Source: Paralichthys olivaceus (Eukaryota > Chordata > Actinopteri > Pleuronectiformes > Paralichthyidae). From it: a stretch of 64,000 bases of DNA. The position numbers were made by a program, and so were the translations under genes. Below are positions 1,555-42,279 of the stretch, in pieces. The notes under the pieces were generated by a model. It saw only the letters and a list, made by a program, of their open reading frames with translations, was not told the DNA's origin and ran no database searches. The first letter of the stretch is position 1. The number at the start of each line of letters is the position of its first letter. Location: positions 27,604,316 through 27,668,315 of the forward strand of contig NC_091098.1 in the NCBI RefSeq assembly GCF_024713975.1. Reading direction: 5' to 3'.

Positions 1555-10401
<8,847 letters not shown>

Positions 10402-15504: not shown

Positions 15505-18500
15505 ATCAAACACACACTGTCAGGAGGAAGCAGATCAGGCACACACTGTCAGGAGGAAGCAGATCAAACACACACTGTCAGAAGGAAGCAGCAGATCAAA
15601 CACACACTGTCAGGAAGAAGCAGCAGATCAAACACACACTGTCAGGAGGAAGCAGATCAGGCACACACTGTCAGGAGGAAGCAGGAAATCAAACACACGC
15701 TGTCAGGAGGAAGCAGCAGATCAAACACACACTGTCAGGAGGAAGCAGGAAATCAAACACACACTGTCAGGAGGAAGCAGCAGATCAGACACACACTGTC
15801 AGGAGGAAGCAGATCAAACACACACTGTCAGGAGGAAGCAGCAGATCAAACACACGCTGTCAAGAGGAAGCAGATCAAACACACACTGTCAGGAGGAAGC
15901 AGGAAATCAAACACACACTGTCAGGAGGAAGCAGGAAATCAAACACACGCTGTCAGGAGGAAGCAGCAGATCAAACACACACTGTCAGGAGGAAGCAGGA
16001 AATCAAACACAAGCTGTCAGGAGGAAGCAGCAAATCAAACACACGCTGTCAGGAGGAAGCAGGAAATCAAACACACTGTCAGGAGGAAGCAGAAGATCAA
16101 ACACACACTGTCAGGAGGAAGCAGATCAAACACACACTGTCAGGAGGAAGCAGCAGATCAAACACACACTGTCAGGAGGAAGCAGGAAATCAATCACACA
16201 CTGTCAGGAGGAAGCAGCAGATCAAACACACACTGTCAGGAGGAAACAGCAGATCAAACACACACTGTCAGGAGGAAGCAGCAGATCAAACACACACTGT
16301 CAGGAGGAAGCAGATCAAACACACTCTGTCAGGAGGAAGCAGATCAAACACACACTGTCAGGAGGAAACAGCAGTTCAAACACACACTGTCAGGAGGAAG
16401 CAGATCAAACACACACTGTCAGGAGGAAGCAGCAGATCAAACACACACTGTCAGGAGGAAGCAGCAGATCAAACACACACTGTCAGGAGGAAGCAGATCA
16501 AACACACACTGTCAGGAGGAGGCAGCAGATCAAACACACGGTGTCAGGAGGAAGCAGCAAATCAAACACACTGTCAGGAGGAAGCAGCAGATCAAACACA
16601 CACTGTAAGGAGGAAGCAGCAAATCAAACACACACTGTCAGGAGGAAGCAGCAGATCAAACACACGCTGTCAGGAGGAAGCAGCACATCAAACACACGCT
16701 GTCAGAAGGAAGCAGCAGATCAAACACACGCTGTCAGAAGGAAGCAGCAGATCAAACACACACTGTCAGGAGGAAGCAGCAGATCAAACACACACTGTCA
16801 GGAGGAAGCAGCAGATCAAACACACACTGTCAGGAGGAAACAGGAAATCAAACACACACTGTCAGGAGGAAGCAGCAGATCAAACACACACTGTCAGGAG
16901 GAAGCAGCAGATCAAACACACACTGTCAGGAGGAAGCAGGAAATCAAACACACAGTGTCAGGAGGAAGCAGAAGATCCAACACACAGTGTCAGGAGGAAG
17001 CAGATCAAACACACACTGTCAGGAGGAAACAGGAAATCAAACACACAGTGTCAGGAGGAAGCAGCATATCAAACACACACTGTCAGGAGGAAGCAGGAAA
17101 TCAAACACACAGTGTCAGGAGGAACCAGCAGATCAAACACACACTGTCAAGAGGAAGCAGCAGATCAAACACACACTGTCAGGAGGAACCAGCAGATCAA
17201 ACACACTCTGTCAGGAGGAAGCAGCAGATCAAACACACGCTGTCAGGAGGAAGCAGCAGATCAAATACACAGTGTCAGGAGGAAGCAGCAGATCAAACAC
17301 ACACTGTCAGGAGGAAGCAGCAGATCAAACACACACTGTAGCAGATCAAACACACACTGTCAGGAGGAAGCAGGAATTCAAACACACAGTGTCAGGAGGA
17401 AGCAGGAAATCAAACACACACTGTAGCAGATCAAACACACACTGTCAGGAGGAAGCAGCAGATCAAACACACACTGTCAGGAGCAAGCAGCAGATCAAAC
17501 ACACACTGTCAGGAGGAAGCAGCAGATCAAACACACAGTGTCAGGAGGAAGCAGATCAAACACACACTGTCAGGAGGAAGCAGGAAATCAAACACACACT
17601 GTCAGGAGGAAGCAGGAAATCAAACACAAGGTCAAGAGGAAGCATCAGATCAAACACACACTGTCATTAGGAAGCAGGAAATCAAACACACAGTGTCAGG
17701 AGGAACCAGCAGATCAAACACACACTGTCAAGAGGAAGCAGCAGATCAAACACACACTGTCAGGAGGAACCAGCAGATCAAACACACTCTGTCAGGAGGA
17801 AGCAGCAGATCAAACACACGCTGTCAGGAGGAAGCAGCAGATCCAACACACACTGTCAGGAGGAAGCAGCAGATCAAACACACACTGTCAGGAGGAAACA
17901 GGAAATCAAACACACACTGTCAGGAGGAAGCAGCAGATCAAACACACACTGTCAGGAGGAAGCAGCAGATCAAACACACACTGTCAGGAGGAAGCAGGAA
18001 ATCAAACACACAGTGTCAGGAGGAAGCAGAAGATCCAACACACAGTGTCAGGAGGAAGCAGATCAAACACACACTGTCAGGAGGAAACAGGAAATCAAAC
18101 ACACAGTGTCAGGAGGAAGCAGCATATCAAACACACACTGTCAGGAGGAAGCAGGAAATCAAACACACAGTGTCAGGAGGAACCAGCAGATCAAACACAC
18201 ACTGTCAAGAGGAAGCAGCAGATCAAACACACACTGTCAGGAGGAACCAGCAGATCAAACACACTCTGTCAGGAGGAAGCAGCAGATCAAACACACGCTG
18301 TCAGGAGGAAGCAGCAGATCAAATACACAGTGTCAGGAGGAAGCAGCAGATCAAACACACACTGTCAGGAGGAAGCAGCAGATCAAACACACACTGTAGC
18401 AGATCAAACACACACTGTCAGGAGGAAGCAGGAATTCAAACACACAGTGTCAGGAGGAAGCAGGAAATCAAACACACACTGTAGCAGATCAAACACACAC

Positions 18501-19575
18501 TGTCAGGAGGAAGCAGCAGATCAAACACACACTGTCAGGAGCAAGCAGCAGATCAAACACACACTGTCAGGAGGAAGCAGCAGATCAAACACACAGTGTC
18601 AGGAGGAAGCAGATCAAACACACACTGTCAGGAGGAAGCAGGAAATCAAACACACACTGTCAGGAGGAAGCAGGAAATCAAACACAAGGTCAAGAGGAAG
18701 CATCAGATCAAACACACACTGTCATTAGGAAGCAGGAAATCAAACACACAGTGTCAGGAGGAACCAGCAGATCAAACACACACTGTCAAGAGGAAGCAGC
18801 AGATCAAACACACACTGTCAGGAGGAACCAGCAGATCAAACACACTCTGTCAGGAGGAAGCAGCAGATCAAACACACGCTGTCAGGAGGAAGCAGCAGAT
18901 CAAACACACAGTGTCAGGAGGAAGCAGCAGATCAAACACACAGTGTCAGGAGGAAGCAGCAGATCAAACACACACTGTCAGGAGGAAGCAGCAGATCAAA
19001 CACACACTGTCAGGAGGAAGCCGATCAAACAAACACTGTCAGGAGGAAGCAGCAGATCAAACACACACTGTAGCAGATCAAACACACACTGTCAGGCGGA
19101 AGCAGATCAAACACACACTGTCAGGAGGAAGCAGGAATTCAAACACACAGTGTCAGGAGGAAGCAGGAAATCAAACACACACTGTAGCAGATCAAACACA
19201 CACTGTCAGGAGGAAGCAGCAGATCAAACACACACTGTCAGGAGCAAGCAGCAGATCAAACACACACTGTCAGGAGGAAGCAGCAGATCAAACACACAGT
19301 GTCAGGAGGAAGCAGATCAAACACACACTGTCAGGAGGAAGCAGGAAATCAAACACACACTGTCAGGAGGAAGCAGGAAATCAAACACAGTGTCAAGAGG
19401 AAGCAGCAGATCAAACACACACTGTCATGAGGAATCAGCAGATCAAGACACGCTGTCAGGAGGAAGCAGCAGATCAAACACACACTGTCAGGAGGAAGCA
19501 GCAGATCAAACACACACTGTCAGGAGGAAGAAGCAGATCAAACACACACTGTCAGGAGGAAGCAGGAAATCGTTA
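15505..19575. repeat. 4 kb minisatellite, 29/32 bp units with higher-order structure
   Basis: About 4.07 kb of tandem units sharing the core CAAACACACACTGTCAGGAG and joined by AGCAGATC (29 bp), AGCAGCAGATC or AGCAGGAAATC (32 bp). Dividing span by unit length gives about 130 units. Diagnostic variants recur at a fixed distance: GAAGATCCAA at 16971 and 18029, and CACAAGGTC at 17625 and 18683. Both give 1,058 bp, so the right half is built from a higher-order block, with a further partial copy to about 19400. Units contain no stop in any forward frame, so long open frames across it are artefacts. Confidence 0.95.
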
Positions 19576-20172: not shown

Positions 20173-21437
20173 ATGGCAGTGAATGTAGCAGTGAATGCAG
20201 CAGCGAATGTACATTCATATAACCGCTATGAGCTGCTGGCGTGGCTCAATGACACGTTACAGACGTGCTTCACCAAGGTGGAGCAGGTATGCACAGGTAG
20301 GTCGTCACGCAAATGTGTTTATGTGTAAATAAAATGCCAAGAAGAAACAATGAGTGCATGTTGTGTGTATACTTTGGGTCTGTGGTAGGTGGGCGGAGCT
20401 TTCATGGCCTTGTTTGTTACAGATCTCACCAGTTTCAAGATCTGCCAAGACCACAAAGTTTGTAAAGCTCAGGAGACTCTGACATTCACCAATGTTTTTT
20501 TGTTCAGTTGCATAATAAGATTTAAATTACCATCATATTTCACAAGTTTTATTTTAGAAGCGAGTGACAATTCAGTACACGTTCATTTTTTTAAACGCAT
20601 GCAAATGTTGAGTAAGAGAAGACACAGAATATTTGGTCTCTACTACATGTTGAAGAGGAGAATAATAAACCATAAATATAGTCCCCATAAACCATCTGTA
20701 GGTTTTACACACTGGTGTTTACATAATTAATGTGTCACATGTTCCATTAGAGATTTTTCAGGAGATGCAAGCGCACCAATTTGCTTTGTAGAGCAACAAA
20801 TCACATCATACATGATCTCAAGGCATTTTACATAGTGACAGAATGACTTCTGTGTGTTTGTATCCTAATCCAGGTGCAGCTTATTGCCAGCTGATGGACT
20901 TGTTATTTCCTGGCTCTCTGGATCTTTCCAGGGTCCGGTTCCAAAGCAACAATCAGGTGGACTCTATCCACAACTACAGTTTACTGCAAGCTGCATTCAG
21001 AAGAACTGGAGTCGTACGAGTAAGTTTTTCTAAATATAAAAGTGGTGAGCGAGCAGTAAATCTGATAATATTTTAAGTTTGATCAATACTGTGTACTGAG
21101 TGTTTTTATGTTCTAATCCTCAATGCACCATTATCTAAACAACATGGGTTAGGTAAAAGACCTGATAACTTTCTTTGGGTCTTTGCAAGTTTTGGTGAAA
21201 GTGTCTTGTGTCTCATGTCATGGTGCGAGAGGTCATTCTCTTCAAGTAGATATTTGTGAGGTATATTCTCTTTTTTTGTCCAGTACGTCCCCATTGAGGC
21301 TCTGATGAAGAGGAACCCGACGGTGGCTCTGACCTTCCTGCAGTGGTTTAAGCTGTTTTTTAATGAGAACAACAAGGGCAGGGAGTACCACGCCCTGGAG
21401 GCCAGAGGAGGCCAGAGCATGGCTCCTGCTGACTCAG
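20173..21437 (+). other. EB1/MAPRE-type calponin-homology exons of gene B
   Basis: Exons 20173-20296, 20874-21019 and 21284-21437 encode a protein starting MAVNV with [26 protein letters not shown] and FLQWFKLFF. It aligns along its length with mapre1 downstream ([40 protein letters not shown]). The first coding exon ends at the same CTG codon phase, and the second exon is 146 nt in both genes. Several basic residues used by EB1 for microtubule binding differ: the position of human EB1 Lys59 is Ser and Lys66 is Asn, while Lys60 and Lys89 are Arg. Microtubule-tip affinity may therefore be altered. Numbering of EB1 is from memory. Confidence 0.93.
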
Positions 21438-24400
21438 GTGGGAGCAGTGTATATCCATGGATTAAAAACTGTAGCTTTAATTACAAGACTGTGGCGGCTC
21501 ACCATAGTTGAATCCGTCTGTCATGGTTTTCATATGTGTTCAGGTGGTGCAACTCAGTGTCCTTTCCTCTTACAGATGATGTTTCCAAGACTCTTCATCA
21601 GAAACTGGAGATCATTCTGAAGATGGAAGCAAGAAAAGAGAAACCCAGAGACGATCTGAACAGGACCGCAGAAATGGTGGTGGTGATATCTGACGACGAT
21701 GATGATTTGATGATGGATGTGTCGAATGAGCAGAAAACAGATAAAATGGAGATTCTAGAGCAAGAACAGGAGAAGGAGAGAGCAGAGCAAACAGAAGCAG
21801 CTGTGGACCAGAGAAGTGAACAAACTAGTTCTTGCAGCAGCAACACTTTGCAGAGTTTCATCAGAAAATACTGTTGTGAGAATGTGGACTCTTCTGCCAT
21901 CATAAGCCCGTCCATCCCAAAAGACGTCATCCAGGCCTGCTCACTCACGCCGTACTGCCTCTACCTGTACATGGGGGTAGAGCTGGACGGAGGACAAAGC
22001 GCAAGCGTCGTCCTGATTGGCTATTTTGACCAGAACTCAGGGGTCCGTGTGGTCAGGCTGCTGTGCACTCTGCAGATGAGTGTGGATCCGCAAACATCCG
22101 TGGATATGGACACAGATGCCGTACACTCTGATTCACACCTTCTGCTTGACACACTGAAGACCTCCAACCTCTCTCTGTCTAACCTTGCTGTGTTTTACTG
22201 TAACGCCCCTCACCCACGGGAGAGCTGGGTGTTTGTGTCCGAGCTCAAGGCCCACAGCCCAGGGTTGGTGTCGCTCTGTGGCCTCCCGGGGATAGCAGGA
22301 AGAGCCTGCGAGATCGCACTTTCTGCTTCCTTTCCTTACGTAGTGGACTTTGTTGGAGACATCCACCACCACTGCTCCACCCACCCCTCTGTTAATAACA
22401 GTCTGAAGGAGATGTTTGCTGTTGTAGAGTCGTACAACCCATTGCACCCCGTCTCTGCACAGTGTTTAGTTTTCATCCACACTGTGCGGAAGATGGTCGG
22501 CAGTTGGAGGGATTTAGTGAAGCATTTTAACTCAGTGAGGCAAACGGCGGGGATTGAACGAATCAGAACCCAGCTGACAGATAGTAAAGTTGAACTGCAC
22601 TTCCTCTTCCTCTCCCAGTCTTTGGAGCCCCTTCAATCTATTGAAGAAGTGCAGCAGAAAGGTGAAGCCGACGTGTTCACGGAGCTCCAGCTGACCTCTG
22701 CTTTGATTCAGTCATATGCAGCTAACATTTTCCGGCCCTCCAGTGCTAAGCGCTTTGTCAGTAGACCAGAGCTTTATCTCCTCCACAGTGACAGGGAGCT
22801 GCTCCCCACATCAGAGATTAACGTAGGCTCCAATGCGATGGACTTCTTGTGGGCCACTGCTGACGTGGATCTTGAGGAACAGGAGAGGAGCGACTTCCTG
22901 AAGGCTGCAGTGACTTTCTATAAAACAACGCTACAGAGCATAGTACAGAGTGTCCCTCAGCAGCTTGGAAAAGTGAGCCTGAGGGGCATCAACACAGTGC
23001 TGAAACACCCAGGGAATATCAATGTAAGAAGGTTCATTTCTTTTTGCCCTGAATCAGAGCAACTGTGCTCAGTTACAGTTCAGCATTTGAACCTGCACCA
23101 GTCAGACTTTTACACCTACCTTGTTTGTTTCATACCTTAAGACTTCTGCTTCATGTAACCTAAAATATCAGGTGTGAAAGGTTCCTCGGAATAAGGTCCA
23201 GACCAACTTTAATTTTTCGTTTGATCACCAGGATCCTCAGTTGTCCAGACTTGCGGTGTCAGAGTTGGGAGTTCAGCTGGGTCTGTGTAAAGTCCAATCT
23301 CCAGAGATGGATCAGCTGGAACTCGACTACCTCAGTTTCATTAAGACGCTGGAAGAAGAACAGACAAGCAAAACAGAAGGTTATTGCTGGACAAAGGTAA
23401 ACCGAGGGAAAAATGTTTCTCGGTGGTTAAAAGGTGTAACTGTCTTGTCCCTGGGAAGATTACCTGTGTTGACTGGAAAATGATTGTCAGTTTATCAGAT
23501 TAGTTTCACACTTTAATCAATCAATCAATCAAATTTGATTTGTATCACCCTTATTCACAAATCACAATTTGTCTCATAGGGCTTTAACAAGGTGTGACAT
23601 CCTCTGTTCTTAACTCGACAAGGAAAAAAACCTTCAAAGGGGAAAAAGAGCGTAGAACCCTGAGAGAGTCACGTGTGAGGATCCCTCTCCCAGGACGGAC
23701 AGACAGAAGTGCAGCAGATACCACGTCACATTCACAAGAGATCACATGTTTAATCTCTGTGATCACAGTGTTAGAAATGAACCCAGTTAAACAAATAAAC
23801 CAAACAAGTTTCATCTCTTTTAATCATCTGTTTCTTTATTGACATTTAAGTCCTCCCACGTAGACAAGTGCAAATTCAGCAGCTGCTGTAGAAATGTTTA
23901 AAATCAAATAGCAGAATTTCCTGTGTCCACAGATGTTGAACGGCATTAGACCATGTTCTGCTCTGCACAGACTCCTCCTGACCCTCCTTGCTCTTCCAAG
24001 CTCTCTCTGCAGGAAACAGGTGTTTTCTAAGGTGAGTGTTAAAAGCTGAGATTATGTTATTCATGGTCCACAGAGGATGACTCCACTTGAACGTTGTCAT
24101 CACTGAACCTTTTCCTCTTTTCCTCTAATGCCGCCTGACATATTTTTGTGAAATATCTCCCTAACCATTGGCTGGACTACCATGACAATTTGGTTTACAC
24201 ATTCATGTCTTTATCACAATAATCATTTTGTTGATCCCTAACTTCTTCCGCTCTAGCACCATCAGTGGTTTGGTGTGTGCATCACTTGACTTAGAATACT
24301 AATGACCTTCCATCAGCACATCGGCCTCTGTATACCTTGTGTTAAATATTAAATAGCAAGTGTTAGCATGCTGCCCTACGACACAGATCTCTAGGTTTTG

Positions 24401-27400
24401 GTCTGTTCTCCTGTCTCAAGATGATCGACAGCACCAAGGCTCCTCCTGACAACAAACAAACCCCCAAACCTCAACCAGGGATGTGGACAGGAAGACCCCA
24501 TGTCCGCAGAAGGAAGCTTCCCATCCTGGCAGGTTATAGCAGCAAGAAGAAAGAAGAAGAGGAGGATGATGAGAGTTCATCTGATGATGGTTTCAGTTTT
24601 GTGGACAAACACAGTCAACAAAAGACAAAAGACAACACGGAGGAGTCAGACCACACAGACAATTCTTCTGGTAAGACCTTCAGGTGAACCAGTCCACGAG
24701 ACCAGACATTATCACTCATGGTTTATTTCTGTACCGGCTGCATCTACGACAGCAGCGATTCTAAATGTTGTTAATAATGATCAATATGAATGTTTTTTGT
24801 TTTTATCAGATGTGGTTGACATCAGCGAGGATTCCAAACTGTTTCACATCAGCAGGCTAACAAAGGCAGAAGGTAAATTTAGAATATACTGATCTTCTGC
24901 ACTTAGTCAGGTGTTGCTTTCACTCATGACCTGAACTCCAGTCAGTTGCTCCAAAAGATTTTCTGGAACGTTTCCTTCTCGTTGCTTTATTATTATTAAT
25001 GCAGTAAATCAGGTCATTCCAAAGGTTTCACATTCTTTTTCTTGCCACTGTATTTGTATGTTAAAATATTCAAAACTCTTGAGTCCAGATTTCATTTACT
25101 AATTTTTTCTGTTTTTCAGCCGAATCAGGTCTACAGGCAAACTCACTTGTCTTGGACAGTGATGATGATGAAGATGATGACGAAGAGGTTTCAAGGAGGA
25201 AACCCTCCAGATCAGCAGGATTCCTGGTAAATAAGGTAAGGTTCAGAAATTGGTTTAATGTCTTGTAGTTTGAATCTGCTGAACAAACTGAATTTACAGT
25301 TATTTGTGATAGAGTTTAAGGTTAAACTGTAAAATTTCAAACCTTAATTGTATTTCTTTGATAATGATGATTTCATTTTAGGAATCATTAACATTTTTTT
25401 AGATATTTGTATATCGGTTTAAATATTAGTATCATCATTTTTTACTACCTGATATCGGCATATATATACACAAGGTATATATATCATGTATATATATATA
25501 CATGTATATGTATGTATGTCTGCTGTGTGGAGAACTGTCAGTAGTTATGCTTTAGCATCTATATATGTGTTTGTGTTGTACAGGATTCAAACGGGGTGCT
25601 GGTCTGGGCTATGGTGAAGGGATTTGGTCTCTGGCCGGCCATCATCGAAGCCTGTGAGGAACAGAAGCTGTTTCAAGGAAAGGGGACAGTGGAGTGGTTT
25701 GGACAGAAAATGTCTTCACAACTGAGTGATGTGTGTTAAGTTATGAAGTTTTGCACATAATTATGCACATACATGCTTCATCTACATCAGTGGTCACCAA
25801 CCTTTTAGAGCACAAGATCACTTTTTAATTCCAAACGTAAGTCGAGATCTACCCCCCCGATATCTTGCAAACAACCCACTTAAGAGGGTCATATTTATTA
25901 GTTGGGCAAATTCTGTCAAAGGCTCAATGTACGAGCATAAATATACAAAGAAATGCAGTTATGCTACTTTATCTATTCAGTGCACAATATTCACATTAAT
26001 ATTAATTCATATTTACAGCTTCTGTTCCATGTGCAATATCTAGCTTCTGATCAACCATATGTTTTGCAGTGGAGCTGCTGCAGAACAATGTTTTGCCTAG
26101 GCTTTGCACGGATTATGGCCATAAATATGACTATTGTCCTGTGTACTTGAATAAATACCAGTACTATGAAGCCATGCATCTTCTGCTCCTGCAAATATTT
26201 CACAATAAAAAACCCTTATTAAACAAAAGAATGTATTGGGCAACAGATATGCTGGAGTGCTTTTATTTTGATCATGTGTCTATGTCACTAACGTATTTAC
26301 AACACTTCCTGAACCTGCTTCCAAGTAAAAGCATTCCGGTGTTTCACTGAATCCATTTATTTGTTTTAATGGGGCTTTGATTGTTCAAAGTTTCCCCACC
26401 TGCTTTTTAATTGACCACCACCTCCTGAGTTACTGATCATTTAAAAATGTTCACTACATTGCTCTGCCTTACTATTCTGACTCCATTCCATGCACTCATT
26501 GTTTTGGCTCTGATTCCAGGTCAGTTTGCTGACTCTGAAACCATTTGCTGCCTTCGGCGAGTGCTTCTGTTCCAGCTCCTTCGCCACACTTGCCACCTAC
26601 AAAGAAGCCATTCTCCTGTCACTGGAGGTTTGTGCGCCCCTCTGCTGTCTGAAATCAACCAACTTGAAAAGTGCTTAGACACCTGTAGCGTCTAACTTAG
26701 TGATGCTATCCACAGATAAAATCTTGTTCAAACAGTTTCTGTTTCTACCATTGATGTTCATGTTTTTCCGACTGCTTCCATATTTTTTATTCTTTTTCTG
26801 TCAGGAGGCAGCACTTCGCTGTAAGAAACGATTTCCTGCGCCTCCCGAGGACAAAAATAAGCTGCTGATGCAGATGTTAGACTGGGCCTTAGCAGGCTTT
26901 CAACCCACAGGACCAGACGGATTCAAACCAACGGCTTCTGTAAATGGTACGAACATCAGAGTAACAGCCTGGATAGATGAACTGTATTAATTATTAAAGA
27001 TTTTTGGAGACATATGGTGTGAACCATATAACATTCTATCAGTCATGGTGTTTTTTTAGTTTTATTACAGATGTCAGTGAGGAAAGAGAGCATGTGTGCA
27101 CAGAAAAAGTAAAAACAAAGTCAGATAATCTGCAGCGTCACATGGATCCAAGTAAGACAGGACATGTAGCTGCATCCTATTGTTAGATTTCTATATATTG
27201 CCCATATCGTGGGCAGTATTCTGTACTAGAGTTGCGACGTTCATGAACGAACCAAATCTTTTGACCGGCTCATTAACATGAACGATGGGAACCGAGTCGC
27301 GGTTGGTTGGGAGCCGTTCTTTTTTTTTTTCTCTCTCCCTGAGTTCACACCACAGACTGTATATAAAGGGTTCACACCTATGGTTCACACAGATGCTCAC

Positions 27401-30400
27401 AAAAGCTCCTTTCTGCTCCTCCACTGAGTGAGACAGAGAGCATGGGGAGCAACAACTTTGCATAATGCAAATATTGCATGAGTTGTGCACGCTCCCTTCA
27501 CGGGAGTGCCTCAATGAAAAACAAAGAAAAAAAAAAAGCAAGCAGCCTGAAGGACGGGGACGTCGTCGTTCTGCAAAATGAGCCAAAGAAAAAGGAGCAT
27601 TTGGATGCACTTTTCGCTTGAGGCAGACAGTAAGGCTAAGTGCAATATTTGCCAGAAGATAATTTCATTTAAGTCTGGCTCCACAAACAATTTGCACAGG
27701 CATTTTAAAACTCAACACCCCACTGTTAAAACTTGTGTGAAGCGTTTTTCTCTAAAATTTGCACTAAAACAAGACACGGTGTTACTGACCAACAACTTAG
27801 TATTTCCTTACAGCACCTTTAATCTTTATTATTACTTTATTATATTATATTAAATATTGTTTTGAGTTTTTCTGTATTGTTCAAAATGTTCTTGTGTGTT
27901 TTTATTGTGTATTTATAAGTGTTTGGGTGTTTCATGAATAACATAAGTCAAAGTAGTTTTACACACATACACACACTTTATACAAAGGGTAAATAGTGAT
28001 CTCACTGTCAACTCAGAGGGATATGGCATTGGAATATTTACAATGAATCCATATCAGACTTTGTCCACACATGTCAAATGAAGCTATAATCAATATTTCA
28101 GAATAATTCAAACTCAAATATTGGTGGAATTAACCCCAGGCTGGCTTCTTAAAAGTGGATACATATAAAAATGAGCCAGTCTTTTGAATGGCTCTTTGAA
28201 ATGAACGTATCCCAAAGAGCCATAAATCCCATCTCTATTCTGTACTGCTTTGAAATGCGATGGTCATATGTCTGTCCTCTGTCCAGGTGATGGTGAGATA
28301 ACCCACCAGCCGAAGGCAAAGAAGAACCTCTTCCTGAAAGCCTCCACTTCTCCTCACTCCGTCAACTCCTCCACTCCACCGAGCATCATGAGCACCGACG
28401 TGAAAGAAGTGGCTGCGTCTCTGAACGAACGGAGAGGGGAAGAAGAGGTGGATTCTGTGGGGAAAAGCACCAGAGGTGGAACGAAGGGGAAGGGATCCAG
28501 AGGAGGATTGGTGGCAGTGAGACAACAGAGGGGAGGATGGGCAGGAGGTAAAGATGACTGGGTGCGAGGGGGTGAGAAGCCAAAAGAAGGATGGGGGAGA
28601 AAAAGGGGTAAGGGAGAATGGAGAAGAGGGAGCGCACAGAGGAAGAAAAGCAGTGGGTTTGATAACGACACATCCCCGGACTTTGTGCCCTACAAGAGGA
28701 GGAACTTCACCAAAACTAACAAGGTCAATGAGGTGACCAGCGTCTACACTCAGCCGGACCAGAAAGTCCGAGGTACACAATTTAATCCTGTCACTGAAGC
28801 TTCATCTGATTTACACCACGAATACAAAGTATTCTAACACGTTCACATGACTGAGAAACAATCACTGAATTATGTCTGAAGTTGATCTTGTGGCGATTTT
28901 GTTGAAGATGAAGTGTTGAAAACTGTTCAGTCATTAATTCAGACTGTGTGTTTGTGGAGTAAAAGAACACTTGAGTCCAAGTCTTCTTATTTAATATGTG
29001 CTACCATGTATTACTCACTATAATATAGTTGAATGTATTGAAAGTGAAAAACTGAATCCTGGATCCACTGGTTTGTCAGGATCAGGTCAGAACTGTAATA
29101 ACAGTATTTTGAGTAATCCTGCAGACACATGGAAATTAAAACATAATAATACTAATTGGATTTTTATCACAAACCTTCATTGATTATTGGTGTTTTTTTG
29201 GTTTCAGAGGAAACAATTCGTAGGATCACAGATATGAAACTGGACATCGAAGGTGAGTAGTAAGACTTTAGTTTTTCATTCTAAATGTGTTCATCATTTT
29301 GCCGTCTCACATTATTAAGGACAGTCCTGTGTACAGGTACGACGACAGCTGAGCTGTTTACATCCATGTAGATGATTTCACCAACTTGGTTTCTTTGTGT
29401 CTGCAGATTTGTGTTTGTGCTGTGGATCTGAGAGCGTGGAGATGTCCCACCCTCTGTTTAAAGGAAGCCTCTGTTTAAAGTGTAAAGTAAGAAACCATGA
29501 ACTTCTCTTTAAGTCACAGTTGGCAGTGACCAACAGTAAAACTCCTCCCAGTTCACCTTGAATGTCATTAAAATGTCGGGAACTGAAGCTCAACACTTTT
29601 TCTCTCCGATTATTATTTTTTAGTCCTGCGCTGGCGACACCTAGTGGCTGGAGTTTTATGTTTTCAGGTTGTCCGTCCATCCAATTGTAATGAACACGAT
29701 GTCTCAAGAACACTGTGAGGGAATGTCTTCACATTGACACATTCACTTAGATTCAGTGATGAAGTGATGACACTGAGGTCCTTCTCACCTGAACTCAAAC
29801 ATCTCAACTCTGGAATTTCTTCACATTAGACTAAACCCATTTCAGCCTCTCGAACATTTTATGTTAAGAACATCTTGCGACACTCGTTCACTTCGACTCT
29901 TGGATTAACTGATTCGATTTGGAAGGTCGAGGTCACGGTGAGTTTGACGTCAGGAGTTTTTCTTCACATTTAGAGTCACTTTGACTCAAAGAAGAACTGA
30001 TCAGATTTCAGTGGTTAAAGGTCAAATGTCATGTGACCACATGATGTATCAGGAACACTTGAAAACAACTGAAACAACCGCAGGGCAATAATTCAATATG
30101 TTTCTTAAACAGCTGATATTATAATTTCCTCTGATGTCGTCCGTGTCTCTGCAGCGTAACTTCACAGAAACTCTGCATCGTTATGATGAAGATGGATATC
30201 AGTCCTACTGCACCATCTGCTGCTACGGACTGGAGGTGATACTGTGCGGCAATGACAGCTGCTGCAGGTTAGTCTGTCGTATCTCCACATTTTAATCTAC
30301 TCTACATATGTAATAAAAACTCAAAGTATAGCGTCTGAGTTTTCTTTCATTGTCCAGCCTCCTCTTCTCCTCTTCCTCTGCACCCTCAGGTCTTTCTGTG

Positions 30401-33400
30401 AGGACTGTCTGAACGTTCTCGTTGGTCCAGGGACGTTCGACTCATTGAAGCTGCAGGACCCGTGGATCTGCTTCCTGTGTCAGCCGCACCGAGCCCACGG
30501 CGCTCTGATCCCCAGGGAGGACTGGAGCATTCGTGTTCAGGAGGTCTTTGCCAACAACAGCGCCATGGCGTTCGTGAGTGCTCCACACATGGAATCAGTT
30601 GAATTGTTTCACTGTAATACAGTTTCACATCACACAACATGAATTCACTCTGCAGTGACGGGATCATTTGTGCATGATTTACATTCTTAGTGATTCTTTA
30701 GCTTCGACCACCATTTATTTTGATCCTGAATTTGTCCACTCAGGTTTCTGGATTTAATGTTTTGTCTTTAAATCATCTGAAACGAGAGAAACCTCCGAAC
30801 ATATTTCATTTAAAATATGTTAAACTGAGGAAAATATCCGCTGTTTAGTTTTCAATTAATTAATTAACTGATGAATCAACTAATCCTTTCAGTTCTTTAT
30901 CAGCCAGGACGTCAGGACTCTTTAATGTCAGTGTTTGTATCTCAGCTCTCAGTGTTATACTGAAATTAGAAATCATGTGATTTTAATTGCATTGTTTTTC
31001 ACATTATGTTAATTTATAAGGTACATTTCAGACATTTTGCTTAAAAAATATATTTAAAACAAACTTAGTTGATCTGTAAAGGCGAATTAAAGAACAGATG
31101 CATTGTGAGTTTAAATAACAAGAATACTGAATAAATGAGCATCTTCTGAACAAAATAACCATAAAACAACAAAATAAATTAGAAATTGAATACACTTAAA
31201 ATAAGAAATGTCCCTGCTTTTAAAAGCATTATTTTTAAATGAGCTTAACTCTATGATTTTTTCTTCTATTAATAAATAATCACACATGTCTTCTCCTCTG
31301 TAGGAGCCGCACCGTGTTTACCCGTCCATCCCCGCCAACCTGCGCAGACCCCTTCGAGTCCTGTCGCTGTTTGATGGCATCGCAACAGGTGACCTCTGCT
31401 CTGTCCTCACTCAGATACTTTGCTCCTGTACATGGTCGGTTGTGACATTTGTTTGGAAATGTGTTAGAGCCTCAGTGTGTAAATATGTGTGTCTGTTTTC
31501 TCCTCAGGTTTCTTGGTGCTGAAGGATCTCGGCTTTAAAGTGGAGAAATACGTCGCCTCAGAGGTCTGTGAAGACTCCATCGCTGTGGCGGCCGTCAACC
31601 ACGATGGGAAGATCATCCCTGTAGGCGACGCCCGTTTCATCACCCAGGAACATGTATGTCAACACACAAACACACACTTCCATATACATCACAGAAGGTT
31701 AGTATGATAATATTCAAAGTTTCTTTTTGTTTGAAATTGTGCTTTTCGCTCACATGACGTGATTTACTTTACTCGTTAGTTTTGAGGAGCGTTAGGAGCG
31801 GTAGAAGAAAATCCATCGGAAGAATTCTGAGAAATAAAGATGAAATTTCAACAATTACCATCACACTTTTCAAGATTATATAAATATAAAAATATATATA
31901 TTAATCAGCCTAAACGAATTGTGACTAAAATCAGCTTTTTGTTGTTCTCTGATAATCCAGCTGGAGGAGTGGGGTCCGTTTGATTTGCTGATCGGTGGCA
32001 GCCCCTGTAACGACCTCTCCATCGTCAACCCGTTCAGAAAAGGAATCTATGGTACGAATTAGTCCATTTTCAATAATGGCAAACGGCCACGGATTACATG
32101 TGGAAAGATGCTGCTTTCTCATTTGAACGTTTTGTCTTAATAATTTTTAAACCTTTGCCTTTTCTTTTTTGCTCTCTTTCCCCGGTCTCTCCTGCAGAGG
32201 GCACCGGCAGGCTGTTCTTTGAGTTCTACCGCATCCTTCAGCTGCTGAAGCCCAAAGACGGAGACCCGCGGCCGTTCTTCTGGCTGTTTGAGAACGTCGT
32301 CTTCATGAACACACACGACAAAGTCAACATCTGTCGCTTCCTCGAGGTTCGTCCACAGCAGTTCTGGAATGTTCTCCTTTTCTTCTTCTGTGTTCCCTCC
32401 TCTTTGTTTCCTCTTTCTTCCTTCCCTCCTCTCTGTCCTTGTTGCCCTGCTGGTTTGAACCAAATGTTTTAACTTGGACAGAATGACTGACTAACAGAGA
32501 GCTCACACTTCCTCTCATTCAATCCATCGACAGTGCAACCCGGTGGTGGTGGACGCAGTCAAAGTCAGTCCGGCCCACAGAGCTCGTCACTTCTGGGGAA
32601 ACATCCCGGGGATGGGCAGGTCCGAGATTTAATTCATTATGGATTAATGTTGTTAATGAAAAATAATAAACTTGCTTTAATGCATTATAATCCTGTAGTT
32701 TTACACCGTGATACATATATTTCATAGAAATGTGACAAATAAGTTGAGCGAGATTCTTTTCCTTCATTTTACTGCTCTGTTTTTTCTGAGTGAGTGAATG
32801 AATGAATGACACCTTGCTCCCCTGTGCACATGTGTAAAAGCCCCATCATGTGTCCAACTTAAGAAAAAGACACCTTTGTGTCCGATTGTTTTGTCCTTTT
32901 GGTTGTCTCTGCTTTCAGACATGGAAAGAAGGACACTGGAAGAAGTCTGGACAATTGTAAAAACCCATTGAAAACCTGAAGATATGTGTTTGTGTGTTTG
33001 CCCCCCCCGTCAGGCCCATTGCTGCGTCTCAGAGCGACAGGCTGAGTCTCCAGGACTGTTTAGAGGTCGGCAGAGAAGCCAGGGTCAGTAACTGCTTCAG
33101 TTCTACTCACTTGTTTGTCATCCTGTCATTACTTCATCACTGGATATTGTTTTATGCAGGTCACTAAAGTGAGGACGATCACCACCAATGCAAACTCTCT
33201 GAAGCAGGGAAAAGATGTGTCTCTGCTGCCTGTCCTGCAGAACGGTCAAGAGGACAACCTCTGGATCACTGAACTGGAAAAGTAGGTATACTTACAATGT
33301 GATTAGGAGTGGGGGGGGGGGGTTTGTGTGAATTGCCAGAATACTAAAACATGTTGGTCTGAACTTAAGGGTGAAATGTTCGCTGATGCTAGTAAATGCT

Positions 33401-34044
33401 AAGCTATCATCAACCAAGACTGTGACAACAAACAAACTCATTCATTTTCATGAAGTGATGATGTCACCACGATGGTGATGTCGCCGTGAAGGAGCGTTGG
33501 ACGTCTTCGTCACTGGATGCAGGCATGCTAACGTGCTAACATTCCAACAGTCGTCTCTCTCTGTGTTACTCTCTCTCCCAGATTCACTCCCACTTTGGTC
33601 TCGTTTAACAAGAAACGATTCTCAGTAGTACAGACGTCATTTGGTCAATACCCTTAAAAGAACCAAGCTCTGTACTAGAAGGCCCCTGACGATAGCTAGA
33701 GAGAATCAGTTCTGGGTGTATGAAATAAAACTGCTAACAACCTGACGTACAGAATGAAAGCACACAGGTTGTAACCATAGACTGTATATAAAGAGGTTTT
33801 AACACACACTTCATTCACCTCCAGGATCTTTGGTTTCCCCAAACACTACACGGATGTGCGGAACATGAACCGGCAGCAGAGACAGAAGGTGCTGGGGAAG
33901 GCGTGGAGTGTCCCCGTCATCCGTCACCTCTTCGCTCCCCTCAAAGACTATTTTGCCTGTGAGGAGCTTTTGACCACGCCCACTTCACACTCCTCCGCCT
34001 CCCAGTTGCCGCCTGCCTCTCCAGGACTACAGCTCCTCAGATAG
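20173..34044 (+). CDS. dnmt3bb.2: Chimeric DNMT3B-type methyltransferase with EB1-like CH domain and transposase-like middle, gene B
   Basis: Predicted de novo CpG methyltransferase. 25 exons splice in frame to 1,606 residues: 20173-20296, 20874-21019, 21284-21437, 21576-23023, 23232-23396, 24421-24670, 24810-24872, 25120-25235, 25584-25730, 26520-26627, 26805-26946, 27071-27151, 28287-28772, 29208-29252, 29407-29486, 30155-30267, 30390-30573, 31304-31388, 31508-31653, 31961-32051, 32198-32346, 32534-32619, 33014-33083, 33160-33281, 33825-34044. Domains: EB1-type CH (1-140), acidic/SUMO-interaction-like motif (176-185), transposase-like fold (about 255-680), acidic linker, divergent PWWP (823-907), Arg/Gly/Trp linker (about 981-1143), ADD (1159-1284), methyltransferase (1285-1580) with [18 protein letters not shown] and RARHFWGN, then a 24-residue tail after YFACE. 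Catalytic motifs are intact. Zebrafish Dnmt3 (dnmt3bb.2) is similarly long and CH-bearing, as far as I recall; the symbol follows that analogy. Junctions are read by eye; the start is the first ATG after the acceptor at 20170. Confidence 0.92.
21576..23396 (+). other. Transposase-like (hAT/RNase H-type) domain encoded largely by one 1.45 kb exon of gene B
   Basis: One exon of 1,448 nt (21576-23023) plus the next (23232-23396) encode about 540 residues absent from gene A and from mammalian DNMT3 proteins. The order of segments resembles the hAT transposase core: strands around [13 protein letters not shown] and [12 protein letters not shown], then [27 protein letters not shown] and [12 protein letters not shown], a helical part ([19 protein letters not shown]), and [18 protein letters not shown] followed by [12 protein letters not shown], as in BED/hAT-derived host genes. 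The Asp positions expected for catalysis are not conserved (MGVE, YCNAP), so it would be inactive. A single large exon fits a captured transposase gene. This is inference from pattern; structure prediction is needed. Confidence 0.5.
23516..23730. repeat. Dispersed teleost-type repeat, copy 2
   Basis: Intronic copy of the family also seen at about 8430-8590, preceded by (TCAA)n. Here the GGAAAAA-block region continues into GGATCCCTCTCCCAGGACGG and GCAGCAGAT, parts missing from copy 1, so it is the longer copy. Confidence 0.6.
25584..26627 (+). other. Divergent PWWP-domain exons of gene B
   Basis: Exons 25584-25730 and 26520-26627 correspond to gene A's PWWP exons (the second is 108 nt in both). 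The signature reads GFGLWPA instead of GFSWWPG, and WFGQKMSS instead of WFGDGKFS. The Asp that in DNMT3A/B contributes to the H3K36-methyl cage is thus Gln, and the first Trp is Leu. The first exon's donor is weak (GAT|GTGTGT), and retention would meet an in-frame TAA at once. Confidence 0.8.
25788..26519. repeat. Intronic repeat remnant with hAT-like end
   Basis: In the intron splitting the PWWP of gene B, CAGTGGTCACCAACCTTTT (25788-25806) resembles the terminal inverted repeat of hAT elements (CAGTGGT...CCAACC). I found no matching right end in the intron, so it is truncated. An open frame at 26069-26350 lies further along; its origin is unclear. Confidence 0.4.
27227..28237 (+). mobile_element. 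hAT DNA transposon remnant with BED-finger open frame and 8 bp target duplication
   Basis: 1,011 bp in an intron of gene B. It begins TAGAGTTGCG and its other end reads, on the opposite strand, TAGAGATGGG, short terminal inverted repeats. It is flanked on both sides by TTCTGTAC (27219-27226 and 28238-28245), an exact 8 bp duplication typical of hAT insertion. An open frame at 27578-27853 encodes a BED zinc finger ([22 protein letters not shown]) and stops soon after; no transposase catalytic region is present. It is therefore an internally deleted, non-autonomous copy. It is not an exon of gene B. Confidence 0.85.
28287..28772 (+). other. Arg/Gly/Trp-rich linker exon of gene B
   Basis: A 486 nt exon placed between the PWWP-side and ADD-side exons, where gene A has only a 123 nt exon. 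It encodes about 162 residues. The central part is dominated by Gly, Arg, Lys and regularly spaced Trp ([30 protein letters not shown]). The final part ([12 protein letters not shown]) resembles the linker before the ADD in other DNMT3B proteins. Strong positive charge suggests nucleic-acid contact; no known domain recognised. The minus-strand open frames here are shadows. Confidence 0.8.
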
Positions 34045-37085: not shown

Positions 37086-40000
37086 ATGGCTGTGAACGTG
37101 TACTCGACCTCAGTGACCAGCGACAACCTAAGTCGTCATGACATGCTGGTTTGGATCAATGAGTCTCTACAGATGAACCTCACCAAGATTGAAATGTTGT
37201 GTACAGGTAAGTTTGGTTTCTGATATTATAATATTCCACAGCTACGTTTACCTCTTTCTTTAGAGGAACTTTATCTCAACCTCCTCCACTGTCGCCGTGT
37301 TTGTTGTCAGAGACTCCGCTCTGTAAAGACAAAATAAATGAACCTGCTGACTCAGCTGCTGATTTCACCTCTTCTGCTCATCTGATCAGTGTCTTGATTT
37401 GCAGTTGGTGCTAACACTGTAATACTACCTTAAGAAGTGGATCAAACCTGCTGTGCATTCATCACTTCCAAAAAAACATTGTTCAAAACAAGTGATGGTG
37501 ACAAAAAGGAATATTTTATCCAATTGCCTAAACCACATGACCTGCTGATACCTTCATACTGTTTCACACCCACCGTCCTGTGTCGTACCTCTGCAGATGT
37601 AACAGACAATAGTAATGATAGTGCCAAACCGATCATGTGGCTAAAATAGAGTTACAGCGTGTCAGGTAGGAGGAGCATAAGAAAGCACATGAGCTAATTT
37701 CTGGTTATCTGATTTATATCATGATGTTTATCAATATCGACCTGATATGTAAAAATGATCGTGATAAGGTTTTCCCCTGAGCGCCCAGCCCACACGCCCT
37801 GTCATGATTTTACAGTAGCAGATATAAACAACTGAAGATTTCGTGGTCAATGTTTTTGCTGCAGGTGCCGCCTATTGCCAGTTCATGGACATGCTGTTCC
37901 CCAACTCGGTGCCTCTGAAGAAAGTGAAATTCGGTGCCAAGCTGGAACATGAATACATCCACAACTTCAAGCTTCTGCAGGTTTCCTTCAAAAAGATGGG
38001 AGTTGACAAAGTAAGTGGCACACCTACATGTCTGCTTGAAATCACATGGTGTATCTGGGCCTGTCCTGTATCGTCTCATATTACGTGGCAGTTGAGTTTA
38101 TTTGTTGTTGACTGAAAAAAAAATCCTGAATCAAGTCATGACGCAGCTTGAAAATCTCTTACAAAGCCTCACATGGATGCAGCTACAGATCTTCAAGTTG
38201 AATTTAAAACCATGATATGATCAAAACATAGAATACTGGAGAAATAAATGACAACACATGTCATCTGTTCTTTTACAAGTTAATCGTTGCCCTCGCTATT
38301 GCCTTGAAAAAAAGAGCCAACGTGAATCTGCAAATAAATCTTTATATAAAACTGTATGTGAGCGCTTCTGCTCACCTCTGAGACTCTGGATATTCAAGAG
38401 AGACACCGGACCTGCAATGTGCGCCAGCACCTGACGCAGAAGAAGCGGCTGCAACCATCCTGCAGAGGCGGGTCGGTTTTGTTCGGTATCTCCAGTACTG
38501 TTAGAATTTTGGCATCAACTTGGTACCAAAGTATCGGTTCTCGTGACATCTGTAAGTGAGGCTGCATTTTCTGGAGCTGCCTCATAATAAAAATCTACAG
38601 CACTGAATATGAGAGGAGGTGAATTGTGATGCCTGATTGTTATTGTGCACCTGCACCTACTCTTAAACACTGCAGCGAGACTTTACTCCAAACTTTCTCT
38701 TGTCACAAACTGTCCAGACAAATCACCCTCACAGTGACTGCGCTGTATTGTGATGTCGGCCATTTGAAGACGCGAGTAACAACGCTGCTTTGACGAGACT
38801 GTTTTGACTCCTGATCACTGTGGTAGCTTGTTCAAACTGAGTAGTACTTCCTGCTGCTTGATATAAGAAGTGAAGCTCCTGTCGTCCCTCCCAACCAGCC
38901 ACGCTGCTGATCTGCTCATGAGTCATTTTGTTTTTATAACCAGTGTTTGCTCAGCTTCACTGTGGATCCAGTTACTACTGCAGTGTTTCCAGTGGATGGA
39001 GTTGTATCAGCGGAGGTAAAGCCAGTGTGCACGGGACAAATGACTGTCATGATATAATTAATGTGACGTGCAAACAAGGGATAGAAAACAAGCAAATGTT
39101 AATGTTCCCTCGTTTTAAACGTCCTGTGCCGCCCCAGCATGATGCTCCATACCTAGATCCTTCTCAATGGACTCTCCTCTCTCATCCAGCTTTGACCCAA
39201 AAGGTTTTCACTTCACCTCGGCTGCTTCCCTGTGTGTCACTCTGAGAGAGTGAGTGAATGTGGGCGGGGCCAGCCCTGTGCATGCGTGCATGCCTCGTTC
39301 TCAGACACAAAGAGAAGCAACACAACTCACTCACTAAATGTTGGTGACATTCTTGTATAAATAAACACGATGTGCAATTTATTGAGGTCACCAAAGTTAT
39401 CAAGTTAATATTTGTTTAGGATCAGTCCATACAGTAATTATCAGGACAGACCTCCTCGGTTCACCAGCTGCTAAACGCATGTGGGAGAAACGCTGCTGCT
39501 GTCATGTCTTCATCAATCAGAGTAAAAATGAGACTGTGCACCAGCAGAAATATTACTGACTTGCTCGGGTGACTTTTCTAAGCTCCGCAGAGTTCACCAG
39601 ACTCAACGTCGTGGTTTAGTTGACTAACTTTAGTATGTGTCGTTCGCACAGTTCGTCATTTTCTGACACTTTTGAAACAAAAGACGAAGTTGAGTGGAGA
39701 TATGAAGCAGTGTGGCATCATGGGAGTTATTTGATGATTAGCTGCTGATCTGTGAAAAGAGGAAAGAAGTCAAACGTCAGGTCTTCATCAGCTGAGTTCG
39801 TCTTCATTATCAGAGGCTTTTCAATAGAAGGTGAAGTGCATTAGTAATAACTTCAAAACAGGGCGTGTCCGGCTCAATCTTCCTTTGTTTCCTTTGCTGC
39901 TATAATTTATTCATGAGCCACTTCCTGTCAGTTTCCTCCAGCTTCCTCTTGTCATGCGTGTTTCAGCAGAAACAACATTGTTTGTATTTTTCCTGCACAG

Positions 40001-42279
40001 GCCACATGTTGTTAGTTAGTCGTTTTATTCCCAGGTCACTTTGTGTTTCACTTGACACTGATGACATTTGTAGTTATAGGCCCCACCCACACAGATACGT
40101 TTTCATGGCACACCAACTCAACGCTACAGATTTGTCTCACATCCATTCTACTCTGGAGTTTTAGAATCGCTAAAACTAAAATGTTTTTAAACACTGCTGG
40201 TCCCATTTGAGTTTTTCAGGGCGATGCTGTAGTCTGGACGACTTTTGGAAACGATGACGCAGCCACTCTCAACCTCTACATGATTGGTTCTTTCAGATCA
40301 TTCCCGTGGACAAACTGGTGAAGGGGAAGTTTCAGGACAACTTTGAGTTCGTCCAGTGGTTTAAAAAGTTCTTTGATGCCAACTACGATGGGAAGGAATA
40401 CGATCCAGTGGAGGCAAGGCAGGGCCAGGACGCCGTGTCCTCATCCAACCCCACCACATCAGCACTCAACAAACCCCCGAAGAAGGCCATAAATCAAGGT
40501 CAGGGGGGCGAGTGAGTCTTAATGTGATTATGATCGATGGCAGGAAAATAATAATCTGTCACGTGTGTCTTCAGCTCCCCAGAGGCCACCCGTCGCCAAG
40601 GTGGCGCCAAAGTTGGCTCCGGTGAGCGTGAGGAAAACGGGGATGGGAGGAGCCGATGAGGAGAGGGCGGAGCTCATGAATGAGGTGAGCGCACCACAGA
40701 AAAAAAGAATCAGCATGGAAACATGATGTCAGAGGTAGAAACAATAGGTAATGATGAGTTTTTCCCGCAGCTGGAGATCCTGAAATCCACCTACCAGGAC
40801 ATGGAGAAGGAGAGAGACTTTTATTTTGGTAAGCTGCGGAACATTGAGCTGATCTGTCAGGAGAAGGAAGGCGAGAGTGACCCCACCCTGCAGAGGATCA
40901 TTGACATCCTCTACGCCACAGACGTGAGTGTCCGCTTTTCTTTTCTTTATTTACATTAAGTCTGTTGTTGCTAATTCATTTTGAAGATTGAGTTCCATTC
41001 CATCATATCGTCAAGTAAAAAAGACGAATTGTCCTCTGAGCCAAAGTTCTCCACTGTCGTCCTGAACTTTTAAAAACACGTCAGTCAAACACACGTTCCC
41101 TCATCACCGGGATCACACTCCTTCATTTATTGACCGACCCCATCAAATGCAGTTTTTGTCCTGTTCAGTGAATGAGTCCGAAGGTTTGATAAAATAAATA
41201 AAAAGATGTTATGAGTTGTGTTTTCAATGTGAACAATGTTTGACTCTGAGTTAAAGGAAAAGTGTTAAATAAAGTACGTCACCAGCTTTATTTAGAAATA
41301 CACATCCCATGAGCCTCTGACATGTTCTTGGTTCGGTACCAGATTAAAACCATTTGCTCTGTCAACTGCTGCTGATGCCGTTGTGAATTCCTGCAGAGGA
41401 ATGTCCTGCAGCTCGTTTACTGAGGCTCAAATTCTTCACTGATTCTTGTCCAGGAGAAAATATTAACCCATGAAGACCTGATGTAAGCGGGAGTATCAAC
41501 CCCCGTCACCCATCGGGTTGTGAGCTGTTCATTGTCGCGTTGTTGCGACGACACTACGAGCTTGTGAGCGAGTCTTCAAAATAAAGGAAAAAGTCAAAAG
41601 TGAAAAAGGTTGTGTCTGAAATTACTCACTCATTTATTCCTCCTTGTTTACGATTCAGTGAAGTCATCAGCAAAGAAAACAAAATGGCTCCGGCCCAGAC
41701 AACATTAAAAATCTTTATTTTAAACTTTCTATTCATGCTTCTAGAAGTATATAGCGTTTAAATTTAAATGTAGAAATAAACTTGTTGGCTGGACTTGACG
41801 ACTCGGATTTGTCTCCTGTCATAAAAAAAAACATTTTTGGGACGAACCTTAAAACAGACGGTTTTATAATGTGGGTTTGAAATTCTGAAAAATAAAAACC
41901 TGTCTGTCTCTGTCCTCATGATGAGAATAATGAGTCGAAACAGAAGAAGCCCTCTCTCCTCCTCTTTCACACATTTTTCCTCCTTCCACTTCTGTAAGTG
42001 CAATGCATGATGGTAAATGTGGTTTGTACACTACTTTGCACCACGTGTCCTGAGGGAGCCGTTTCCTAACATTCAGACAGATCTACAGTGTGGAGCTGAA
42101 CAAACAGCAGCAGTGAGACACAGTCAACACATTATCTGCTGAGCTGGATGATGAAGCGTCTCTGGTTCTCATCTCTCTCTCTCCCTCCCTCCCTCTCTCT
42201 CTCTCCCTCGCTCTCTCGCTCTCTCTCTCTCCAGGATGGCTTTGTGATACCTGATGCTGAGGAGCCAGAGGAGTTTTAA
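37086..42279 (+). CDS. mapre1: EB1, microtubule-associated protein RP/EB family member 1
   Basis: Microtubule plus-end tracking protein that recruits other tip proteins in cytoplasm, spindle and cilia. Six coding exons in frame, 258 residues (human EB1 has 268): 37086-37206, 37865-38010, 40297-40498, 40575-40684, 40771-40923, 42235-42279. The N-terminal CH domain starts [20 protein letters not shown] and contains [15 protein letters not shown] and [10 protein letters not shown] Pro/Lys-rich linker follows (KPPKKAINQ to VRKTGMGG). The coiled-coil/EB-homology part includes [19 protein letters not shown]. The tail is [14 protein letters not shown], ending in EEF rather than the usual EEY. It sits about 1.7 kb after gene B, whose CH exons are its closest relatives here. 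A 202 nt exon start is set at 40297 by reading frame. Which fish copy (1a or 1b) it is cannot be told. Confidence 0.96.
42174..42234 (+). repeat. (CT)n tract forming the acceptor of the last mapre1 exon
   Basis: About 60 bp of CT/CCCT repeats run directly into CCAG at 42231-42234 and serve as the polypyrimidine tract. Confidence 0.85.

Follow-up and report, generated by a model that had tools for sequence, protein, structure and literature searches.

The stretch of DNA considered here (the window) comprises 64,000 nucleotides of the forward strand of contig NC_091098.1 from the flounder Paralichthys olivaceus, positions 27,604,316 to 27,668,315, and all coordinates below are positions in this window. 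Three genes on its forward strand are of interest: a DNMT3B-like gene (gene A), a second methyltransferase gene (gene B) and mapre1b, which encodes EB1. By synteny and domain content, gene B is taken to be dnmt3bb.2. On the evidence of its sequence, it is a real, old methyltransferase drawn from three sources in a single frame, as the initial annotation had proposed: domain and fold matches identify an EB1/EB3-type CH domain, a middle part resembling a hAT transposase and a DNMT3B core.

Gene B and its reading frame

The exon ends of gene B were read from the raw sequence and tested by script. The resulting model has 26 exons separated by 25 introns, all of them GT-AG, and runs from an ATG at 20173 to a stop codon ending at 34044, with a coding length of 4,920 nucleotides, a single terminal stop and a protein of 1,639 residues. 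The single frame of consistent phase described in the initial annotation holds between these ends, but its count of 25 exons and 1,606 residues does not; that shorter version fits the omission of exon 6, the sole 99-bp exon (33 residues). Exon 6 is included in P0002, a P. olivaceus database protein (“isoform X1”, 1,612 residues) that is 100% identical to the model over residues 145–740 and, aligned end to end, differs from it in two respects only: it lacks the 27 residues encoded by exon 13, and the residue at that junction is different. P0002 and the homologue architectures described below are gene predictions as far as could be seen. The parts of gene B are as follows:

20173–20296, 20874–21019 and 21284–21437 (+): exons 1–3, EB-type CH domain, residues ~14–135 (Pfam, EB structures, intron phases)
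21576–23023 (+): exon 4 (1,448 bp), acidic linker and most of the hAT-like domain
21623–21625 (+): internal Met158 (alignment column)
21677–21706 (+): SUMO-interaction-like motif, residues 176–185 (pattern count against shuffles)
21845–24031 (+): hAT-transposase-like domain, residues 232–712, spliced from exons 4–6 (predicted fold)
23232–23396 (+): exon 5, hAT-like domain continued (present in P0002)
23933–24031 (+): exon 6, C-terminal end of the hAT-like domain (present in P0002)
24421–25235 (+): exons 7–9, acidic linker
25584–26946 (+): exons 10–12, PWWP domain and the helices after it (DNMT3B PWWP chains)
27071–27151 (+): exon 13, missing from database isoform X1 (alignment with P0002)
28287–28772 (+): exon 14, basic Gly/Arg/Lys-rich linker
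29208–30573 (+): exons 15–18, ADD domain (Pfam, DNMT3B match)
31304–34044 (+): exons 19–26, catalytic domain with SPCN and FENV motifs (Pfam, DNMT3B match)

The hAT-like middle domain and its spread among teleosts

The middle domain is predicted to adopt the fold of the hAT transposase Hermes, with an RNase H core and a helical insertion, and in one comparison the alignment covers 354–363 residues. The fold alignment extends to Hermes residue 606; the hATC dimerisation region gave no Pfam match. Pfam searches of the full 1,639-residue protein and of 12 middle domains matched neither the middle domain itself nor a BED zinc finger (zf-BED).

The acidic catalytic triad of a hAT transposase is not conserved across the 178 sequences (of 250 examined, including the exon-4 open reading frame, ORF, of the window) with coverage of 90% or more of the domain profile. 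In predicted strand 1 (columns 60–65), none of the 178 sequences has an acidic residue. At column 125, after strand 4, 115 sequences have N and 36 have D; at column 467, near the C-terminus, 85 have E and 19 have D (D or E in 104). The flounder residues at columns 67, 125 and 467 are G, N and K. Two counts weigh against a loss of the active site: 108 sequences have D or E at column 67, which directly follows strand 1, and columns 67, 125 and 467 are all acidic in 23 of the 178 (14 with column 68 in place of 67). Other acidic columns are conserved, such as column 80, which is D in 173 of the 178, but they lie away from the places in which the hAT fold would presumably put its catalytic residues.

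A transposase active across the family was rejected, as the triad is not conserved, and the sequences suggest that the middle domain is probably no longer an active transposase. The early description of it as an inactivated hAT transposase agrees with a predicted Hermes fold that lacks the conserved catalytic acids. The predicted RNase H core and helical part are shared with Hermes; the domain differs from it in its unconserved catalytic acids, its acidic composition, the lack of a detected BED finger and its position within a methyltransferase. No free-standing hAT donor was recognised among the protein matches listed, which is not evidence of its absence, and a hAT family other than Hermes, outside the fold listing, could be the source.

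A protein search with residues 145–740 as the query gave 76 listed matches, and two further searches listed 74 and 104. A domain was counted as present if more than 60% of its length was covered. By this measure, the middle domain and ADD are present in every one of the 76 proteins, the catalytic part in 75, PWWP in 74 and CH in 58. The initial annotation had staked its reading on orthologues with the same order of parts, and 56 of the 76 proteins have all five parts in that order. The further searches add cod relatives, Danio Dnmt3bb.2 (P0230) and Dnmt3bb.3 (P0225), carps, catfishes, electric eel, clupeids, salmonids and pike.

A recent gain confined to flounder was rejected, since the middle domain occurs in Danio, catfish, clupeids, salmonids, pike, cod relatives and percomorphs. 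The gain was initially called lineage-specific, which is apt relative to gene A, but it long predates the flounder. The main teleost groups diverged more than 200 million years ago. A tree of 26 chosen middle domains, with 15 of its 23 inner branches well supported and a midpoint root used for drawing only, largely follows the fish groups, as expected from the sequences if they descend from one ancient fusion.

Zebrafish dnmt3bb.2 (dnmt3) and dnmt3bb.3 (dnmt5) both encode the middle domain, and P0230 also has the CH domain. These zebrafish genes, with “dnmt3bbb” of PMC6976628, are orthologous to gene B by synteny, as given in that paper, and by the shared middle domain. The flounder domain is spread over three exons, whereas single ORFs that span it are found among otophysan relatives; the introns that split it in flounder lie at 23024–23231 and 23397–23932. 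Of 82 matches shorter than 700 residues (including the window ORF), 66 end at the end of exon 4, 14 reach the end of the domain and two end in between; the 14 include two named cyprinids and one annotated Gadus protein. Since some of the contigs may be transcripts, these counts do no more than hint at intron gain in the spiny-rayed line.

A short acidic pattern at residues 176–185, a putative SUMO-interaction motif, is found after Met158 in 49 of 75 proteins from the set of 76 (one was dropped for its short upstream part), where 0.5 would be expected from shuffles. The motif occurs in none of the 67 long matches from the 104-match search that have enough upstream sequence.

The CH domain and the methyltransferase core

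The CH domain matches the structures of EB3 and EB1 with E values of 1.7e-38 and 3e-36, respectively, and the Pfam CH family with 2.7e-9. It is 44–46% identical to EB1, EB3 and the mapre1b product of the window. This gene starts at 37086, 3 kb downstream of gene B on the same strand:

37086–37206, 37865–38010, 40297–40498, 40575–40684, 40771–40923 and 42235–42279 (+): coding exons of mapre1b (EB1)

The first three coding exons of gene B and mapre1b have the same intron phases (1, 0, 1), exon 2 is 146 bp in both, and the first two exon junctions fall at matching aligned residues. The CH domain of gene B is thus of EB/MAPRE type in its sequence and, against the mapre1b of the window, in its junctions and phases. 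The third coding exon differs in length, at 154 bp in gene B versus 202 bp in mapre1b. Compared with EB1 and EB3 (MAPRE1 and MAPRE3), the likeness of the fusion protein ends after the CH exons, and several basic positions are changed. In an alignment of 115 CH rows, the K89 column holds K or R in 103 and the K100 column N or D in 97; these are among the basic positions that we assume to contact microtubules.

A tree of 17 CH domains (that of the window, 13 of the 114 CH-bearing matches, human EB1 and EB3, and mapre1b) places the three EB proteins together on a long branch, with long Merluccius and Alosa rows as well, and names no EB donor. As a comparison of sequences, it neither supports nor excludes a mapre1 donor.

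The CH domain that the initial annotation had mentioned for some zebrafish Dnmt3b-like proteins is in print, at the N-terminus, for teleost dnmt3ba and dnmt3bb.2 (PMC5513168, PMC6976628; PMC5320511 for dnmt3ba). The gene order nol4lb-commd7-dnmt3bb.1-dnmt3bb.2-mapre1b is described as conserved in teleosts in PMC6976628, in its own nomenclature. Neither “EB1” nor “fusion” appears as a term in the main text of that paper. According to PMC5320511, a CH domain is not identified in mammalian Dnmt3.

The CH and middle domains do not always occur together. CH falls below the 60% threshold in 18 of the 76 listed proteins, two of which hold part of one; this may reflect either loss or the annotation of isoforms. 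The database domain list for zebrafish Dnmt3bb.3 has no CH. The column of Met158 holds Met in 47 of 77 rows and a gap in 18, and the models of several CH-less relatives start nearby. Because Dnmt3bb.3 and several database models lack it, the CH domain would form a module that can be separated from the rest.

The third part is the complete PWWP-ADD-methyltransferase first read from the sequence, as Pfam and DNMT3B chain matches bear out. Pfam gives E values of 6.5e-24 and 9e-21 for ADD and 3.7e-18 for DNA_methylase, and the ADD and catalytic regions together match DNMT3B with E 1.1e-199. PWWP scores 19.8 bits, under the Pfam cut-off of 25.6, and single DNMT3B PWWP chains match it at E ~3e-21. 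Gene B has what defines a DNMT3 de novo methyltransferase: PWWP, ADD and a C5-methylase core with PCN and ENV motifs. SPCN and FENV co-occur in 162 of the 167 listed homologues longer than 1,000 residues.

The PWWP domain (25584–25730) is diverged, with WFGQ in flounder at the position where DNMT3B has WFGD. Among the 150 of the 167 homologues that bear the pattern, WYGQ is found in 58, FFGN in 63 and WFGD in 14; the D of WFGD presumably contacts methyl-lysine. Mammalian DNMT3B shares PWWP, ADD and the catalytic core with gene B but has WFGD where flounder has WFGQ, and is not known to contain a hAT-derived domain.

Possible origin and function of the fusion

The reading that we prefer, at a rough probability of 0.6, is that dnmt3bb.2 gained its two N-terminal modules before the sampled main teleost groups split, and that the dead hAT body serves as a multimerising or docking scaffold. 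Tandem copying of a dnmt3b-mapre1 unit would have placed the second dnmt3b copy downstream of the opening exons from one of the mapre1 copies, and an exon of hAT origin may then have joined between these exons and that dnmt3b copy. The dead hAT body would multimerise or dock the enzyme, altering its assembly on chromatin and the choice of chromatin within its reach. This function is proposed because hAT proteins assemble into dimers and larger rings, and because DNMT3 enzymes work as oligomers. A broader version is tentative and rather doubtful: in a class of de novo methyltransferases found throughout the teleosts, the captured hAT body would be a scaffold for multimerisation or for targeting repeats, and the EB1-derived CH domain would add spatial or cell-cycle control.

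The initial annotation had suggested that the middle domain could bind DNA or dimerise. Binding DNA is the weaker half, because a BED finger was looked for and not found, and because the 178 sequences have a median isoelectric point of 5.75 and a median net charge of -9; as a property of the sequences, this acidity argues against DNA binding as the main job of the domain. It is unlikely, if still worth weighing, that the domain is a DNA-binding module that steers the methyltransferase to transposon or satellite sequences. Hermes–DNA complexes are among the best fold rows, and what keeps such targeting in play is the paralogue Dnmt3ba, which has a CH domain and reportedly methylates TGCT within the mosaic satellites of zebrafish (PMC7978034, citing Ross et al. 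2020). The ricefield eel protein, with 1,484 residues (PMC5320511), leaves room for a hAT-like domain in Dnmt3ba. If Dnmt3ba does carry the module, this would help explain its satellite methylation outside CG.

That the middle and CH domains are near-neutral passengers tolerated by the enzyme is improbable. The middle domain does diverge faster than the core, with a median identity to flounder of 53.8% in the set of 76 versus 88.2% for the catalytic part, and the 18 proteins noted above lack CH at the 60% threshold. However, 178 of 250 sequences match 90% or more of the domain profile, with several invariant columns among them, and these 178 span clupeids, otophysans, salmonids and percomorphs. 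It is more improbable again that the middle part has an RNase H fold of different descent and is merely hAT-like, as in both models the Hermes rows score 4.7–8.3 Z units above the row that follows and align over most of the domain. The idea that the gene model fused a CH-plus-middle gene to a plain dnmt3b gene is hardly credible and was rejected: the middle domain does occur without a methyltransferase in P0085 (Collichthys, 690 residues) and P0125 (Merluccius, 903 residues), both named EB3, and in P0138 (Gadus, 688 residues), but the sequence of gene B has phase-consistent splice sites throughout, P0002 from the same species matches it and, among the predicted proteins, 56 of the 76 have the five parts in order.

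While the CH domain is already known in print, the hAT-derived domain seems to be unrecognised: no description of it or of this fusion was found in the literature searched, which was available in part and had most subscription papers outside its scope. A transposase body absorbed into a DNA methyltransferase, and kept since before the main teleost split, would be a concrete transposon part in the methylation machinery. The fusion also gives a handle on the differing target choice of the teleost Dnmt3 paralogues. As zebrafish Dnmt3bb.2 and Dnmt3bb.3 both carry the domain, it is accessible in a standard model animal by in-frame deletion. The neighbouring mapre1b offers a simple, testable source for the unexplained teleost CH domain.

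Upstream of gene B lies gene A, which was read by eye:

5388–10401 (+): gene A, DNMT3B-like (dnmt3bb.1 by synteny), from the PWWP exon to the stop

Gene A was initially said to have neither CH nor middle domain; this holds for the part of it inside the window, which gave no significant CH or hAT-like match. Between genes A and B is a 4-kb minisatellite (15505–19565) with a 32-bp unit in ~129 copies, ending ~0.6 kb before the ATG of gene B. Intron 13 of gene B contains a BED zinc finger ORF at 27551–27853 (Pfam zf-BED, E 8.8e-11), which is probably a separate, younger hAT relic.
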